From contig DUAN01000036.1 in assembly GCA_012960845.1 (NCBI GenBank), positions 1 through 43,625 on the forward strand: a stretch of 43,625 bases of DNA, read 5' to 3'. Shown here piece after piece: positions 17,182 through 28,197 of this stretch. This stretch comes from Planctomycetota bacterium. Its GTDB lineage: Bacteria; Planctomycetota; UBA8108; UBA1146. The position numbers and the translations under genes are program-made. Every line of letters begins with the position of its first letter. Position 1 is the first letter of the stretch. Below the pieces are notes generated by a model. That model saw only the letters and a list, made by a program, of their open reading frames with translations, had not been told where the DNA came from and made no database searches.

Positions 17182-20100
17182 TCAACGCTTTCTCAGGACC
17201 ACATTCACCTCGAAGGTGTCACCCGTTCGTTCGATCACCAGCAACACGGTATCTCCCGCTTCCAACTGTTTCAGAAGGTTCGAGTAGCCCCGGAGGTCAT
17301 CGATGACGGTACCGTCCAGCGAGAGGAGTCGATCTCCCTCTCGCAGTCCCGCCGCCTGAGCAGGAGAATCTTTCACCACTCCTTCAATCCTGACACCCGG
17401 ACCGGTGTCAGCGAAATCTGGAATCGTGCCCAGAAAAACCCTTCTCCCGGCGGTAGGAGTTGTGATTTTGGTTCCCGCCGCCCCAACCAGGGTCGAGGTC
17501 AGCGGCTCGGTACGATCCGATAGATACAACAGCGCTTCCCGCAACCATGTCGCGACCTCAACCATTCCAGCAGTGTCGACCTTGTCGGCAGTATCTCCTG
17601 GACGGTGGTAGTCATCGTGTGGACCCGTGGTCAGTTGAATCCCCGGTACACCTAACTCGTGGAAAGGCACCTGATCCGACCCACCGGGATCATCCTTGAC
17701 CGCCGTGGCTGCAACACCGGTGGTGAAGCCGATCCCGCGGGCGATGTGAATCCATTCGGTCGCGGTGCCGGTTCCCAGTGCCAACAACCTCCCCTGCGAG
17801 AGGCGTCCGACGGCATCGATGCTGATCACCGAGATCGCATCCTTGGCTGGCCACTGCTCCATCGATTCGATGTACCGACGAGCCCCTCGCAAAGCCCACT
17901 CCTCGGCACTGGTGGCGACGAAGATGACGGTCCGTGCTGGACGATGGGTTCCGGCCATCATCCTGGCGGTCTCGAGCATCACTGCCACACCGGAGGCGTT
18001 GTCGTCCGCTCCCGGGTGAATCTTGCCTTCATTTCCTGCCCTGACGTCGGGCCACCCGCGACCGAGGTGATCGACGTGAGCGAGGACCACGACAGATTGC
18101 CCCGACAGCGCTGGATCGTTGCCGGGAATGACTCCGATGACATTTCGAAGCCTCACACCCTTCTTCAACCGATCGTCGAGTTCATCTTCGCTCCAGCAAT
18201 CGAAGAAACTTCCGTCCGGTGCCCCCGGCTGCAGCCCGATCTCGGAAAATCGATCCGCCACCCACTGGGTCGACTGATGCAGTCCTTCTGAACCATTTCC
18301 ACGCCCCTCCCGTTGTGGATCGGCAAGCCAACCGACATCCGAGATCATTCGATCCGCATCGAGGACCGGACCCGGTCGAGCGAGAGGCTCTCTCGCATCT
18401 TCCGGCGCGGCGACCGAAATCCCCGCGGCTGTCCAGGAGAGTGGGGAAGTGCCAGTCGCCCATTCACCCTTGGCCACGTTGGTCGGTTCATCGCCTTCAA
18501 ACAGCAGATAGGAATACTTGCCATAGTGCGGCAGTTTTCGCGCCAGACCCGGAATCGCCGCCTCGCGATAGCAACGGACCAACCCAATCGTCAGATTTTC
18601 ATCGTCGGGATGTCGTTCCACCTGAACTCCGCAGTGATCGAATTGATCCAACCTTGGCTCTACGTACGGCGGCTTCATCGTCGGCAGTTTCCAGGACGAA
18701 TAAGCGAGTTCGAACTTCCTACTCTTCGATCCCTTCTGGAGGATCGCCTTCCGCAAGGTCCCATTCGCAATACCCATCGTCGGCTCGCCGAGGATCCAGA
18801 CCGACCTATCCTGCGGGATTTCTTCCAGTTCGGTGTCGAGGACGATGCGAACATCTCCATCGGTAGCCCACGATTCGGCCAGCGCTCGCCATGCATCGAG
18901 TCTCGGACTCAGAGAAGGCAAGATGATCAATTGGGAAGAGGCACCGAAGATGTCTCCGATGGTCGGTGGGGTTTCCGAACGATCGAGCCTTCGAAACACA
19001 TCGAAGAAGGGATCGACCCTCACCGCGGCCAGTGAACCCTCGACCTCAAAAGATATCTGTCGAGAAATCACTCCATCGTCTCCGGGAGTGAACTCCAAAA
19101 TTTCCTGCAACCACAAGGAGGAAGTCGTCAGTTGGTAATGAACCGGAACCCGAATCCGATACGGGTTCTGCTCCTGAACCTGCTCGATAACGATGCGCGA
19201 CGATTCCTCGCCCGCTTCCACGCTCAGCCGAAACTCCGGTGCTCCAGTCCTTTCGGTCCAGGATTTCATCCAGTCCACGAGATCAGTCCCGGCGACCTCT
19301 CCGATCGATTCGGCAATGTCCTTGAAGGCAGCACTCCGAAAAGAAAAGGACGAGTAGAACTCCTGAAGACCTCTCTTGAACGCTTGCTCGCCAACCTTCA
19401 AGCGGATCATATGCCACAACATCAGGCACTTGCCGTAGCCCACCGCTTCGGAAGCCCCGGAATGGCGACTACGGAAATCTCGTAAGGGAAAATCGAGTCC
19501 CTCCTGTACATAGGATCCGAACTTCTTCAAGACATCGCGGCGGTACTCTGCTCCACGTCCCTCACCTTCCTTCATCAAATGGTCGGCGAGATATGCAGTG
19601 AGCCCTTCGCACCAGTTGCCGCTCGGATAATCGACATACACCGAGTTCCCCCACCAGTTATGTAGCACCTCGTGCGGATAGGATGATCTGATGATGAAGG
19701 GCAGCCGGATCACTTGCGGACCGAGCAACGTGAAAGACGGCATGCCGTAACCGCTCTCCCAGAAGTTTTCGACCAGAGCGAACTTTGAATACGGATAGGG
19801 ACCGATCAATTTCGAGTACATCTCGACATACTGGAGAGTCGCTTCCAGATACTTCGCAGCAAGGTTGGGCTCATCATCTCGCAAATACACCTGAGCCTCG
19901 ACCTGAGCGGTCACTTTGCGATACTCGTGAAAACGGGCAGCGATGAGAAAAATTTCTTCCTGGGGTTTACCCTTCTCACTTCTCCAGTGAACGATGCTCC
20001 GATCCGCTTCACTCGACACGACTTCTCTCGTGCCCTGGCTCACAGCTGTCCAGCCAGCCGGAAGATCGACTCTCAGCGAGAAAGTAAACCTGGTCTCTTC

Positions 20101-20574
20101 CTGAAGGGGTAACCACGATGTCGCTCCCCCCAGAAACACACCCTTCTCTTCGATGGTTCCAGGAGTCGCTGAAAAAGATCTTCCCGCTCCTGAGCCGACC
20201 TGTGTCAGTTGTTCCTGGATGACCCCTGATGCACTGAGGATCACAGGGGAAGACTCCTGGTCCTTGAACTCGACTCTCCACCATCGACGTGACACCGGCC
20301 GCTGGGGGTCGAGTGTCGCTCCAGATCCAACCACTGATGCATCCCGGATCTGAGTCAAGGATCCGGCCGATTCGAGTTGAGGGGTTAAACCAGAATGGAG
20401 AGGGAAATCATAATGCTGCTGCAACGATTCGACCGTCGACAAGGTGGCACGCCAGGAGATCGCACCTGTTGAGGGCTGGAGAATGACCTCAGCGTCCAGA
20501 TGAGGCGGATACCCGGACGAATTCTCGGTAGGAGCGACAGACAGCAAACTGCTCAATATCAGGGTGAGGTACAT
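17182..20574 (-). CDS. Exported M1-like / M28 double peptidase with C-terminal PDZ domain
   Basis: An 1130-residue protein with a short signal peptide (MYLTLILSSLLSVAP) that fuses two zinc exopeptidase modules. Residues about 230-500 are M1-like: HEVLHNWWGN near 301, with a Glu in WCEGLTAYLADH 17 residues on, one fewer than the classical 18 spacing. After a linker domain, about 800-1040 form an M28 aminopeptidase with all ligand motifs: HVDHLG, ADDNASG, SAEEWALRG, DAVGRL and GPHDDYHRPGDT. The end is a PDZ domain (VVKDSPAQAAGLREGDRLLSLDG). Likely an extracytoplasmic peptide scavenger, with PDZ steering substrates. The start has GAGGAG four bases upstream. It precedes the ynbA-like gene by 76 bases on the same strand. 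Confidence 0.9.
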   Translation of the reverse strand: MYLTLILSSLLSVAPTENSSGYPPHLDAEVILQPSTGAISWRATLSTVESLQQHYDFPLHSGLTPQLESAGSLTQIRDASVVGSGATLDPQRPVSRRWWRVEFKDQESSPVILSASGVIQEQLTQVGSGAGRSFSATPGTIEEKGVFLGGATSWLPLQEETRFTFSLRVDLPAGWTAVSQGTREVVSSEADRSIVHWRSEKGKPQEEIFLIAARFHEYRKVTAQVEAQVYLRDDEPNLAAKYLEATLQYVEMYSKLIGPYPYSKFALVENFWESGYGMPSFTLLGPQVIRLPFIIRSSYPHEVLHNWWGNSVYVDYPSGNWCEGLTAYLADHLMKEGEGRGAEYRRDVLKKFGSYVQEGLDFPLRDFRSRHSGASEAVGYGKCLMLWHMIRLKVGEQAFKRGLQEFYSSFSFRSAAFKDIAESIGEVAGTDLVDWMKSWTERTGAPEFRLSVEAGEESSRIVIEQVQEQNPYRIRVPVHYQLTTSSLWLQEILEFTPGDDGVISRQISFEVEGSLAAVRVDPFFDVFRRLDRSETPPTIGDIFGASSQLIILPSLSPRLDAWRALAESWATDGDVRIVLDTELEEIPQDRSVWILGEPTMGIANGTLRKAILQKGSKSRKFELAYSSWKLPTMKPPYVEPRLDQFDHCGVQVERHPDDENLTIGLVRCYREAAIPGLARKLPHYGKYSYLLFEGDEPTNVAKGEWATGTSPLSWTAAGISVAAPEDAREPLARPGPVLDADRMISDVGWLADPQREGRGNGSEGLHQSTQWVADRFSEIGLQPGAPDGSFFDCWSEDELDDRLKKGVRLRNVIGVIPGNDPALSGQSVVVLAHVDHLGRGWPDVRAGNEGKIHPGADDNASGVAVMLETARMMAGTHRPARTVIFVATSAEEWALRGARRYIESMEQWPAKDAISVISIDAVGRLSQGRLLALGTGTATEWIHIARGIGFTTGVAATAVKDDPGGSDQVPFHELGVPGIQLTTGPHDDYHRPGDTADKVDTAGMVEVATWLREALLYLSDRTEPLTSTLVGAAGTKITTPTAGRRVFLGTIPDFADTGPGVRIEGVVKDSPAQAAGLREGDRLLSLDGTVIDDLRGYSNLLKQLEAGDTVLLVIERTGDTFEVNVVLRKR

Positions 20575-23121: not shown

Positions 23122-23721
23122 TCACTCCTCGATCAAGGCTGAGACCCTTATCCAGTCGGCCAGATCGTCCACATCCTCGAGAACCAAGGGGTTCTCAGTG
23201 ACGACATGATCGACCATCAGATCTGGAAGAGCGAACAGAGCCCTGAGGTGCTGCGGGCCATCGGCTTGCAGAAGAGTTTCGATCTTGTCCCTGGTCACGA
23301 TCACAGGGTGACCTCGACGCATCGCATGAGAGATGATCCAGGCATCGAAACGGGGAGGGCTTTGACGGGCGACCCTGGTCAGTTGTTCGACATCCGATTT
23401 CCTGACACCGATGACATCTACCGGATGAATCAGCATTGCATCCCACTGACCTGCCACAGCGACTGCAGTCCTGATACTGCTGACCGGCCCATCACTGGGA
23501 TCATGATTGATCACCAGTGGAGTTCCAATCCGATGCGCCTCTTCCTGCACTGCCGCACAATGAGTGCCTCCAGCCACCACCATCACCTCATCGCACCCAC
23601 CACCGCGCAGGGTCTGATGTAGCCGATCGAGAATCGATCGGCCGTGAATATTGAGCAATGCCTTCGGTGAACCAAACCGACTCGACTCTCCTGCTGCGAT
23701 GATGACGCCTCGAATCTTCAC
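23122..23721 (-). CDS. MobA-like nucleotidyltransferase
   Basis: A 199-residue MobA-like NTP transferase. The N-terminal nucleotide-binding signature IIAAGESSRFGSPKALLNIHG is intact, followed by a Rossmann-type pattern and IHPVDVIGV at the metal-binding position. Relatives include MocA (molybdopterin cytidylyltransferase), MobA and sugar-phosphate nucleotidyltransferases; the MocA-like pattern RFG.PK and the RRGHPVIVTR segment lean towards the MocA/MobA branch, but no molybdenum-cofactor gene is nearby, so the substrate stays open. The GTG start at 23721 shares GTGA with the upstream helicase stop, so the two are co-translated, which gives no clear functional link. Length is typical. Confidence 0.82.
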   Translation of the reverse strand: MKIRGVIIAAGESSRFGSPKALLNIHGRSILDRLHQTLRGGGCDEVMVVAGGTHCAAVQEEAHRIGTPLVINHDPSDGPVSSIRTAVAVAGQWDAMLIHPVDVIGVRKSDVEQLTRVARQSPPRFDAWIISHAMRRGHPVIVTRDKIETLLQADGPQHLRALFALPDLMVDHVVTENPLVLEDVDDLADWIRVSALIEE

Positions 23722-26279
23722 CCGGTGTGCTCCTCTACATCCGATTCCGAGAAGAACGCTTCCAGTCCGGTACGGACTTCATCCCATGTGCCAACGATGC
23801 GTCGGCAATCGGGTAAACTCGCCAGAAACCGTTTTCCGTAGGGCTTGTTGACGATCCGTGCATCTCCGATGACCACGACACCCCGGTCATCGAGGGTTCG
23901 AATCAAACGGCCGAATCCTTGACGCAACCCCAACACCGCCCGGGGCAATGCGAGATGAGCAAATGGGCTCTTCCCTCTCGCTTCCAGTTCCTCCGCCCTA
24001 CCTTGTTCGAGCGGGTGATTGGGAATTCTAAATGGCAACCTGGCGATGATCACACAAGACAATGCCGCTCCAGGAACATCGATTCCTTCCCAGTACGACT
24101 GATTACCGAATAGCACTGCATGACCGGAGTCGACGAACCGCCTCAGCAATTCGCTGCGGGGGGCTTCACCCTGAACCAGAAGCGGCATGCCAAGCGCCTG
24201 CAAACCAGAACGAACCATCTCTGCCGTTCGCCGAAGCGCCTGATGAGACGTGAACAGGACGAAGGTTCGGCCGTCTGCAGCACGAGCAGTGTCGAGCACC
24301 ATCTCTGCAATCTTCTGGTCATATCCAGAACGACCCGGGTCTGGAATGTCTTCTGGCAATCCAAGCAAGACCTGACGCTTCCAGTCAAATGGAGATGAGA
24401 AGTCCTCGCGCTTGATCCGCTCACGCTCGACATGATCCCAACCAAGTCTGTCACTGAGAAAGTTCCACGATTCCCCGACTCTCAACGTGGCACTGGTCTG
24501 GATCACTGTAGAAACCGGGCCGTATAGGTGCTCGGCGAGGAGTTCATCGACGCGTAAAGGGGCTGCACGAAGGACCAGTTGCTTGACAGGTTTCGATGCC
24601 ATCTCGATCCATGGCTGGATTCCACCTGCGGCTCCCAGAACGAAATCAATCGATGAGATCTGCTCGACCACAGAACGACATGCCGAACGCATCTCCACCA
24701 GGCCTGCCTGAAATTCTAGTTCCGGTTCGAAGGTCTCCTCTTCAAGAACCTCGAAGCAATGTTGCAACTCACCTCTCAACCCATCGAGGCTCTCCCTCAC
24801 GTCCGCCAGTGGAGGGGAAACCACGGTCATCGGAAGCAGACCTTCACGATCGCCGATTCGCGCCATCAACGACCCGTTTTGCCCCGCAGAGTCTCCCACC
24901 AGGTGAGATGCAGAGAGGACCCTGACTTCCAGGCGATCGAGTGCCGCCTCGATCTCTTGCCGGGCAACGCGCACTCGCGGAAGAACAGTCATCGACAGCA
25001 ACTCGTGGGCGTGCCCCTGGTGGTGGCGGGCGAGGTGACTGCGTAGCCACGGTAGGCGTCCACTCTCCTTGCGGCTCCTCTTGCCACGACTGGCCACCAA
25101 TCGGCCCAGTACCTGAAGAACTCCTCGGCGGGACACTTCTGCTCCCAGGTGGTGACAGGCGACCTCTTCCAGGTGATGACCTTCATCAAAAATGACCTTC
25201 TGATAGCCAGGGAGCACCAGGTCACTATCGAAGTCACCGGTTGATCTCCGCAGTTTGAGATCGGCAAAGAGCAAGTGGTGATTGACCACCACGATATGTG
25301 CACCGAAGGACTTTCGCCTTGCCTCGTAATAGAAGCACTCACGGTAATGCGGGCATCGCGCCTTCAAGGATTGATCGGAAGTGGACTGGAAATCGGACCA
25401 GATCTCAGCAGGAACCTCGCCTAGCATCTCCTGGCGAGTGCCATGCTTTGCCTCCCCGAGACGGTCGATCACATCCGCTACCCAGCTAGCTCGCTCTTCA
25501 TCATCGGAGAAGATCTCGGGTTCCGTCGCCACCTGCTTGGTCTTTCTCCGGCAAGCATAATTGCCACGCCCCTGGATCAGGGCGAATCGGAAATCGATTC
25601 CCAGCACTCTTTGAAGAGCGGGCAGATCCTTGTGAACCAGTTGTTCGCCAAGCGGAATCGTTGCGGTGGAGACCACCACCCTGCTGCGATTTTTGACCGC
25701 CCAGAGAATCGCAGGCACCAGATATGCATAGGACTTCCCGATCCCGGTTCCTGCTTCCAGAGCAGCGATGTCGCCTTGATTGAGAGCCCTCGCGACAGAC
25801 TTCGCCATCTCCACCTGCCCGGGGCGTTGCTCATATCCGGGGAAGGATGTGGAAAAGACTCCTCCGTCAGCAAAGATCTGTTCGATCTCGACGGGATCCA
25901 CTAGCACTTCCTCACGCTCGGGAAACGGCTCGACGACTCGATTCATCTTGCTGCCATCATTATTGACGATGAAGAATCCGAGGCGTCGTCCACCCGCATC
26001 CGAGGCGATCGAGAGGTCGGCGGGACTGGGAGTGAGATCTCCCCCCGGATGATTGTGGATCAGTACCTGAAATCCCTCCTCCGCTCGGGAAAGGAAGACA
26101 GGCACCTCTGAAGAGCGGCCTCGTGCGACCACCTCGACCTGATGGAGTAGGCCCTGGTCATCGACTCGACCGAGGAAGAAGACCTCATTCTGGCCGGCGC
26201 CAGCGATCTCGGAAGCGATCTGCTGTCGAATAGCAGGAGTCATCCACGGTGCAGTGTCGATTCCTTCGGTACGGCCCAA
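23718..26279 (-). CDS. JAMM (RadC-like) domain fused to a DinG-family helicase
   Basis: An 853-residue fusion. Residues about 25-115 form a JAMM/RadC-like domain with the full metal motif: Glu32, HNHP (His75, His77), then Ser85 and Asp88 at the exact H-x-H-x7-S-x2-D spacing. From about 150 on it is a superfamily 2 DinG/XPD-like helicase: Walker A EAGTGIGKS, DEGH in VIFDEGHHLEE, motif V/VI GNQSYWEGIDVPGA and GFGRLIRT. The iron-sulphur region has YAC, ARC and REC, but the position of the fourth ligand (SC in E. coli DinG, by my alignment) is Ser in DQSLKARC. Start TTG 26279 has GAGAGGA well spaced; ATG 26243 is the alternative. A role in DNA or RNA repair is likely; the JAMM activity is unknown. 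Confidence 0.88.
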   Translation of the reverse strand: MGRTEGIDTAPWMTPAIRQQIASEIAGAGQNEVFFLGRVDDQGLLHQVEVVARGRSSEVPVFLSRAEEGFQVLIHNHPGGDLTPSPADLSIASDAGGRRLGFFIVNNDGSKMNRVVEPFPEREEVLVDPVEIEQIFADGGVFSTSFPGYEQRPGQVEMAKSVARALNQGDIAALEAGTGIGKSYAYLVPAILWAVKNRSRVVVSTATIPLGEQLVHKDLPALQRVLGIDFRFALIQGRGNYACRRKTKQVATEPEIFSDDEERASWVADVIDRLGEAKHGTRQEMLGEVPAEIWSDFQSTSDQSLKARCPHYRECFYYEARRKSFGAHIVVVNHHLLFADLKLRRSTGDFDSDLVLPGYQKVIFDEGHHLEEVACHHLGAEVSRRGVLQVLGRLVASRGKRSRKESGRLPWLRSHLARHHQGHAHELLSMTVLPRVRVARQEIEAALDRLEVRVLSASHLVGDSAGQNGSLMARIGDREGLLPMTVVSPPLADVRESLDGLRGELQHCFEVLEEETFEPELEFQAGLVEMRSACRSVVEQISSIDFVLGAAGGIQPWIEMASKPVKQLVLRAAPLRVDELLAEHLYGPVSTVIQTSATLRVGESWNFLSDRLGWDHVERERIKREDFSSPFDWKRQVLLGLPEDIPDPGRSGYDQKIAEMVLDTARAADGRTFVLFTSHQALRRTAEMVRSGLQALGMPLLVQGEAPRSELLRRFVDSGHAVLFGNQSYWEGIDVPGAALSCVIIARLPFRIPNHPLEQGRAEELEARGKSPFAHLALPRAVLGLRQGFGRLIRTLDDRGVVVIGDARIVNKPYGKRFLASLPDCRRIVGTWDEVRTGLEAFFSESDVEEHTG

Positions 26280-26436: not shown

Positions 26437-28197
26437 TTAGCAGCCACCCGTCGGAGATGCACATTCGAGCGAATCGGTATCGGTCGGGTCGATTCCGCAG
26501 TTTCCTCCTGGTGGCGGAGGTGGCGGTCCTCCCGAGAAGAGGAATCCAAGCTCGTAGATCGCATCTGCGATGTTAATCGCTCCATCATCGCTGACGTCTG
26601 CAGCATCATCACAGCCAGGAGCGGTACCACCGGAGAAGAGGAACCCGAGCAGGCTCACTGCGTCACCGATGTTGGTCGCACCATCTGAGTTGACATCTCC
26701 ACGACGGAACTGAATCCCTCCGATATTACAAGCAGGATCGCTGAAGCAGTCGGGGTCATCGCAGTCTGCCAGAGAATCGCCATCGTCATCGACTCCATTG
26801 CTGCAGTCCTCACTCGGCCCCGTGCCCGGAGCTGCGCCGGTGTGGTAGAGACCGCAGGAGATGCCGCCGAACTCGAAGATCGCAGAGTAGGACTCGTTGA
26901 CTCCGTCATTGTCGGCATCGATATCGGGGAAGATATTGAAGGTGTTGAGCAGATCGACCAGCGTTCCTGCGAAGGGCGCGGGAGCGGGCTGGGTGATGAG
27001 GAAGGACTGAGTCAGGAACGCACTCGTCGGAGTACTCTGGAACTCATAGACCCCGGTGAGTGTGCTGGGGAAGAAGTCTGCTTCGACGGTCAGTCCGTTG
27101 AGTGGGATTCCCGAGACGTAGATGGTTCCCGGACCAGCAACCAGGTGCCCCGCGGTCAGTGATCCGCCAGGGAAACTTGAAATCGGCTCTCCTGTAACCT
27201 GGTCATAATCGAGCGGATCGATCACGAAGTCATTGAACCCGTCGCCATTATCGGTGAAATCGCCATCCAGGTCGAAGCCGCCAAAGGCGTTGAGAGTGAT
27301 GTCTCCATCGTCCTGATAGGTGGGATCGTCGAGATCCGCAACCTCGAGGAGGAACGGGAAGTTATCGAGATTAGAAGCCAGTAGATCGTTGAGTCCCGCC
27401 GCGATGGTCGGGTTGGAACCGAGGATTCCGCCGGTCACCACCTGTGAGGTCGCCACAAAACCATCGGCTCTCGGATGGTAGGAATAGTAGAGATCGCAGG
27501 AGATTCCGCCGAACTCAAAAACCGCGGAGTAGGACTCGTTGACTCCGTCACTGTCTGCATCGGTGTCGGGGAAGATGTTGAAGGTATTGAGCAGGTCCAC
27601 CAGCGTGCCGGCAAAGGGTGCAGGAGCCGGCTGGGTGGCGAGGAAGTCCTGGGTCAAGAAAGCATCCGTAGGAGTACTCTGGAACTCGTAGACTCCAGTC
27701 AGGGTGCCCGGAGTGAAGTCCGCCTCGACGGTCAATCCGTTGAGCGGGATGCCCCCGACAATGATGGTTCCAGGCCCAGCGACCATGTGTCCATCGACGA
27801 TGGTTCCATCCGGGAAACTAGAAACGGGTACCCCGGTGTTCTCATCGAAAGAAGTCGGATCAATCGCGAAGGCGTTGGATCCGGAACCGTTATTCGAAGA
27901 ATCGCCGTCCACATCGAATCCACCGAAGGCGTTGAGTGTGATGTTGTCGTCATTGGTGTAGGTCGGGTCATCCAGATCCGCCACTTCCAGAAGGAAAGGA
28001 GAGGTCAATAGACGCTCTGCCAGCAGCTCGTTCAAACCCGCTGCGATGGTCGGGTTGGAACCCAGAATTCCTCCAGTCACCACCTCGGAGGTGGCGACAA
28101 AGCCAGGTCTGGAATTCTGCGCCTGAACTTCTACACAGATCAAAAAGGTAAGAATGACTGCAATGGTGGTAAAAACGCTAGATGTGCGCCGACTCAT
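26437..28197 (-). CDS. Secreted protein with two long internal repeats and dockerin-like C-terminus
   Basis: A 586-residue exported protein of unknown role. A signal peptide (VFTTIAVILTFLICVEVQAQ) is followed by two copies of a roughly 207-residue module (residues about 32-240 and 246-452) beginning GFVATS.VVTGGILGSNPTI. Each contains acidic DxDxDG stretches likely to bind calcium. Next come a Cys-rich GVDDDGDSLADCDDPDC segment and two EF-hand/dockerin-like repeats (GDVNSDGATNIGDAVSLLGF; the second with DVSDDGAINIADAIYELGF), a pattern common in planctomycete secreted proteins. A PPPPPP linker and a Cys-containing end finish it. AGGAGG stands four bases before the ATG, so expression could be high. 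It is monocistronic, bounded by terminators. Confidence 0.85.
   Translation of the reverse strand: MSRRTSSVFTTIAVILTFLICVEVQAQNSRPGFVATSEVVTGGILGSNPTIAAGLNELLAERLLTSPFLLEVADLDDPTYTNDDNITLNAFGGFDVDGDSSNNGSGSNAFAIDPTSFDENTGVPVSSFPDGTIVDGHMVAGPGTIIVGGIPLNGLTVEADFTPGTLTGVYEFQSTPTDAFLTQDFLATQPAPAPFAGTLVDLLNTFNIFPDTDADSDGVNESYSAVFEFGGISCDLYYSYHPRADGFVATSQVVTGGILGSNPTIAAGLNDLLASNLDNFPFLLEVADLDDPTYQDDGDITLNAFGGFDLDGDFTDNGDGFNDFVIDPLDYDQVTGEPISSFPGGSLTAGHLVAGPGTIYVSGIPLNGLTVEADFFPSTLTGVYEFQSTPTSAFLTQSFLITQPAPAPFAGTLVDLLNTFNIFPDIDADNDGVNESYSAIFEFGGISCGLYHTGAAPGTGPSEDCSNGVDDDGDSLADCDDPDCFSDPACNIGGIQFRRGDVNSDGATNIGDAVSLLGFLFSGGTAPGCDDAADVSDDGAINIADAIYELGFLFSGGPPPPPPGGNCGIDPTDTDSLECASPTGGC
26842..28104 (-). 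repeat. Tandem duplication of a 642-base module within the secreted-protein gene
   Basis: The two modules are offset by 214 codons (about 27463-28104 and 26842-27462) and share long identical peptides such as AGTLVDLLNTFNIFPD. Third-position differences are frequent, so the duplication is not very recent. Confidence 0.9.

Follow-up and report, generated by a model that had tools for sequence, protein, structure and literature searches.

The window, the whole stretch of 43,625 nt of Planctomycetota DNA analysed here, carries on its reverse strand an open reading frame of 853 aa in which a JAMM domain precedes an XPD/DinG-type helicase part (residues ~145-845). The frame starts with TTG at 26279, immediately downstream of the Shine-Dalgarno sequence GGAGAGG, and relatives use TTG or GTG in the same position. 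The first-pass annotation had described a JAMM/RadC-like domain joined to a DinG helicase at 25935-26210, which equals residues 24-115 of this frame, and the detection of Pfam RadC and helicase domains in one 853-aa frame substantiates the joining. Misassembly or a frameshift fusing two genes was ruled out, as relatives carry the same single frame.

23718-26279, reverse strand: RadC-like DinG, JAMM domain followed by XPD/DinG-type helicase, 853 aa, single open reading frame
25926-26237, reverse strand: JAMM/MPN (RadC-clade) domain, residues 15-118, by Pfam RadC, AlphaFold and Foldseek
26184-26186, reverse strand: E32, predicted catalytic Glu, conserved in 47/47
26049-26057, reverse strand: H75-N76-H77, predicted metal ligands (HxH), conserved in 47/47 (codons: H75 26055-26057, H77 26049-26051)
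26016-26027, reverse strand: S85-x-x-D88, predicted oxyanion Ser and metal ligand Asp, S in 46/47 and D in 47/47 (codons: S85 26025-26027, D88 26016-26018)
25731-25757, reverse strand: Walker A, motif I EAGTGIGKS, residues 175-183
25335-25553, reverse strand: Fe-S region with C243, C309 and C315; the second cysteine position is S304
25176-25187, reverse strand: Walker B DEGH, residues 365-368
23808-24293, reverse strand: Helicase_C_2, second motor domain, residues 663-824, Pfam 2.7e-40
23122-23721, reverse strand: MobA/MocA-like nucleotidyltransferase, whose GTG start overlaps the helicase stop by 4 bases

The N-terminal 160 aa matched Pfam RadC with an E-value of 8.8e-6 and 26.1 bits (cut-off 22.1), and the whole protein gave 20.9 bits. 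The model NF000642 scored 18.1 bits against an equivalog cut-off of 180, with the match limited to residues 72-92, and no exonuclease family in Pfam matched the N-terminus. The helicase part matched DEAD, DEAD_2 and Helicase_C_2 in Pfam. Its best NCBIfam model was YoaA (5e-168, under the equivalog cut-off of that model), and Walker A, the DEAH box and motif VI of the DinG/YoaA motor domains were all found, along with three cysteines of a predicted Fe-S cluster. The metal motif reads E32 ... H75-N-H77-P-G-G-D-L-T-P-S85-P-A-D88 and fully matches the JAMM pattern E-xn-HxH-x7-S-x2-D, hence the motif is complete and correctly spaced at the front of a DinG-type helicase, as had been stated from the sequence.

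Further, the N-terminal domain is MPN in its predicted fold. The AlphaFold model, built with ten sequences, has a pLDDT of 84.9, a pTM of 0.75 and MPN topology, with a helix, two strands, a helix, a strand leading into HxH, a helix and two strands (alpha-beta-beta-alpha-beta-alpha-beta-beta). A folded JAB domain, which the first-pass annotation had asked structure prediction to look for, is thus present. Foldseek returned RadC 2qlc at the top, followed by archaeal Rpn11, CSN5 and PfJAMM1, at moderate TM-scores of about 0.4-0.55, the level expected of remote relatives; among the matches listed at E<=0.001, the hits were MPN/JAMM proteins. The full-length model, at pLDDT 68.3, has medium confidence, too little to place the JAMM domain on the motor, and its helicase part matches the structures of E. 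coli DinG, S. aureus DinG and XPD.

To compare relatives, homologues were gathered from the window's class and from the phylum Planctomycetota, which gave 47 fused proteins. E32, H75, N76, H77, P78 and D88 are invariant in all 47, and S85 is kept in 46, the remaining one having Thr, so relatives keep the motif residues, whose loss would have spoken against the domain, and the motif goes beyond chance. In proteins from other families the JAMM domain shares 37-52% identity with the window protein and is thus about as conserved as motor domain 2 (34-48%); the Arch domain, at 15-26%, and the linker are far less alike. At one Fe-S cysteine position 21 of the 47 have C and 26 have S, and as the JAMM residues are near-invariant the JAMM site is kept more tightly than one cluster ligand. 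Nearly all members of the window's class (L002-L028) have Ser at the second Fe-S cysteine position (S304 here), leaving three cysteines; Cys is found in the class members L022 and L023 and in the other fused Planctomycetota groups. The orthologue of one genome (G011; L016 / L042) has 820 aa as against about 860, in one frame, with the Arch region ~448-531 unaligned.

RadC-like JAMM proteins occur widely among bacteria and, to our knowledge, have no agreed function. The gene found here is almost certainly a RadC-like DinG, a subgroup defined by Cheng in 2025 with Desulfuromonas soudanensis as model member (PMC11981726). That review has this E, H, H, D centre too, with modelled Zn, reports that a DALI search gave metalloproteases, not nucleases, and states that RadC-like DinG has seen no research. 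By 2017, RadC fusions to DinG/RAD3-like helicases already stood, with earlier work cited, among the reasons for regarding RadC as nucleic-acid-processing (PMC5512222). As fusion, centre and subgroup are all in these papers, the window protein is a further member of a described subgroup, and the novelty implied by the first-pass annotation does not hold; the gain lies in function rather than in discovery of the fusion.

The window protein shares with that subgroup the N-terminal RadC-like domain (E, two H, D), the YoaA-like helicase, an Fe-S domain, here with three of the subgroup's three or four cysteines, and a genome without HolC, and differs in coming from Planctomycetota and in the serine that most of its class has in place of the second Fe-S cysteine. 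Stand-alone RadC (PF04002, NF000642; 2qlc) has the same signature, HNHP-[SG]-G-x-x-x-PS-x-x-D, and its profile matches at 97% probability, but the window protein is without the N-terminal helix-hairpin-helix of NF000642 / UPF0758 and is fused to a helicase. E. coli YoaA and DinG have the same helicase motors, Fe-S region and Arch, but no JAMM domain, and YoaA partners HolC, which is absent here. ExoDinG of the B. subtilis/S. aureus type also carries an additional enzyme domain N-terminal to the DinG motor; there it is a DnaQ-type exonuclease, whereas here it has the JAMM/MPN fold. Finally, the JAMM/MPN+ peptidases (PfJAMM1, archaeal Rpn11, CSN5) share the fold and the full metal motif, while the window protein has the RadC-type HNHP signature and no recognised ubiquitin-like partner, and its peptidase role is a predicted one.

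Among 294 sampled Planctomycetota genomes (completeness filter 80%), a profile of JAMM plus motif I was matched over its full length in 52. The remaining matches begin past most or all of the JAMM part, and one further match, in genome G290, begins at a contig end. Nearly every genome with a match has exactly one DinG-type hit, JAMM or no JAMM, so JAMM-bearing and JAMM-less proteins occupy the same genomic DinG slot; in all 52 fusion-carrying genomes the JAMM domain is bound to the DinG-family helicase of the cell. In an unrooted maximum-likelihood tree of the helicase part all fused proteins fall on one side with support 98, hence the architecture looks old and vertically inherited. One fusion in Planctomycetota with vertical descent thereafter is the simplest reading, and the unrooted tree is also compatible with loss. 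The named loci come from environmental genomes, most of them labelled Planctomycetota. Outside the phylum, the occurrence is known from the 2025 review (PMC11981726) and from one Fusobacterium record.

A mobile or phage gene was considered and rejected, as fused JAMM-DinG is absent from phage records and recovered viral contigs. In the plasmid collection the only match across the JAMM part was the Fusobacterium record of 2.1 Mb (NZ_CP084075.1), labelled plasmid pSB055A, whose size suggests a chromosome filed as plasmid. The DinG of Fusobacterium vincentii in this record (L113:3959-6427, forward strand) has a degenerate JAMM-like N-domain, colinear with JAMM over residues 12-111; its score with the JAMM profile is 17.3 bits, where 200 shuffles reached 2.5 at best. 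R, T and E stand at the positions of H75, H77 and D88, and E32 is missing. From this one sequence we consider a "pseudo-JAMM" DinG possible, which, if general, would parallel the pseudo-exonuclease DinG of PMC11981726; as this DinG appears motif-less, catalysis may not be the sole role of the JAMM domain.

We also looked at what accompanies the fused gene. Family f1, to which the window belongs, mostly has a separate true RadC, the window's genome included, and no separate RadC match was found in the class families f2-f6; dependence of the fused domain on stand-alone RadC is therefore ruled out. HolC (PF04364) was found in 0/26 genomes, with E. coli and Caulobacter positive as controls. With no RadC match in f2-f6 and no HolC in the 26, the fused domain is independent of the usual RadC, and the YoaA-HolC partnership is not applicable. 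That the genome also has a partner system with a JAB peptidase was likewise ruled out, as the Prok-JAB peptidase is absent from f1. Of the neighbouring genes examined, none could be recognised as ubiquitin-like or E1-like.

As to mechanism, our preferred reading is a metal hydrolase that is active and coupled to translocation along ssDNA. The role hinted at in the first-pass annotation, processing of nucleic acids or removal of a protein modification, would be a predicted one. The protein would be a 5'-3' ssDNA translocase of the DinG/YoaA/XPD type with an N-terminal JAMM metal-hydrolase domain that is predicted to be catalytically intact; the JAMM site probably binds Zn2+ and is active, and it would act in concert with the motor where the DNA is blocked or damaged. 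For the substrate we lean slightly, and tentatively, towards an amide (peptide or isopeptide) bond of a protein encountered on the DNA track, as characterised JAMM enzymes carry out amide chemistry with just such a single-metal centre, E-HxH-S-D. It is described as a zinc metalloprotease centre in the account of JAMM chemistry in PMC300881, and a bacterial JAMM cuts MoaD-MoaE (PMC8832034). FANCJ, a relative of the motor, drives into crosslinked proteins and unfolds them, after which a separate protease, SPRTN, cuts (PMC12279946); here motor and hydrolase would share one chain. By analogy, we speculate that the protein could be a single-chain bacterial unfoldase-protease for DNA-protein crosslinks, in which the Fe-S helicase enters the crosslinked protein and the JAMM domain cuts, though we regard this as improbable. 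If true, one bacterial chain does the work that animals divide between FANCJ and SPRTN. The mechanism as a whole, protein substrate included, we put at somewhat below even chances. Counting against this mechanism are the argument of Aravind and colleagues that a groove for the ubiquitin tail is unlikely in RadC (PMC5512222), the lack of a ubiquitin-like or E1-like neighbour, the Fusobacterium domain that seems to be without metal ligands, and the fact that the literature cited here holds no measured peptidase activity for any RadC-clade JAMM.

The lines of evidence diverge on the substrate, with the chemistry pointing to amide (protein) hydrolysis and the position of the domain to a nuclease. 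The main rival is accordingly that the helicase feeds a JAMM domain which acts as a nuclease or processes nucleic acids in another way, cleaving phosphodiester bonds where ExoDinG would use its exonuclease and EndoDinG its endonuclease. Other DinG subgroups carry nuclease domains at the equivalent N-terminal position (PMC11981726), the same phylum has a DinG whose N-terminus resembles an exonuclease (L129), and a nuclease is what the authors of PMC5512222 favour and what was proposed for RadC in 2012 (PMC3482391). We nevertheless consider it slightly less likely than a protein substrate, as no RadC nuclease activity is reported in the literature cited here, characterised JAMM enzymes use such a single-metal centre to hydrolyse amides, and Foldseek in the present study agrees with the DALI search of PMC11981726, which gave metalloproteases. 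Peptidase and nuclease could be told apart directly with simple point mutants in a tractable member.

Less likely again is a mainly structural or regulatory N-domain, binding a partner or guiding DNA, a role of the kind suggested for the incomplete exonuclease of pExoDinG. The colinear Fusobacterium vincentii domain, with R, T and E for H75, H77 and D88, is in line with such a role, but it is one sequence with a weak match, and the protein lies outside the fused group in the helicase tree, its exact place having low support. In the window's lineage, moreover, long divergence has left four of the five motif residues unchanged in 47/47 and the fifth changed once, which speaks against this reading. 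The neighbourhood raises another alternative, that the JAMM domain serves molybdenum-cofactor synthesis by cleaving a MoaD-MoaE fusion. The mobA-like gene and dinG share 4 bases and lie side by side across family f1 and in f5, and the bacterial JAMM mentioned above cuts such a substrate. However, this adjacency was found in part of the class and not outside it, the MoaE frames in these genomes have <=187 aa, which is short for a MoaD-MoaE fusion, four class genomes with fused DinG gave no MoaE match, and the fusion to a helicase would be hard to account for; we consider this explanation highly improbable.

The MobA/MocA-like nucleotidyltransferase gene at 23122-23721 has its counterparts as neighbours in L019-L021 and L031-L042. 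In nearly all family f1 loci examined the order is atp operon, dockerin-type protein, dinG, mobA-like gene and Ser/Thr kinase. The gene lying family-wide between the atp operon and dinG (26437-28197, reverse strand) encodes a protein whose two halves resemble each other, with an acidic double-disulfide repeat after them and a dockerin-like end. Further along, 17182-20574 on the reverse strand encodes a 1130-aa protein with M1-like and M28 peptidase regions and a PDZ domain.
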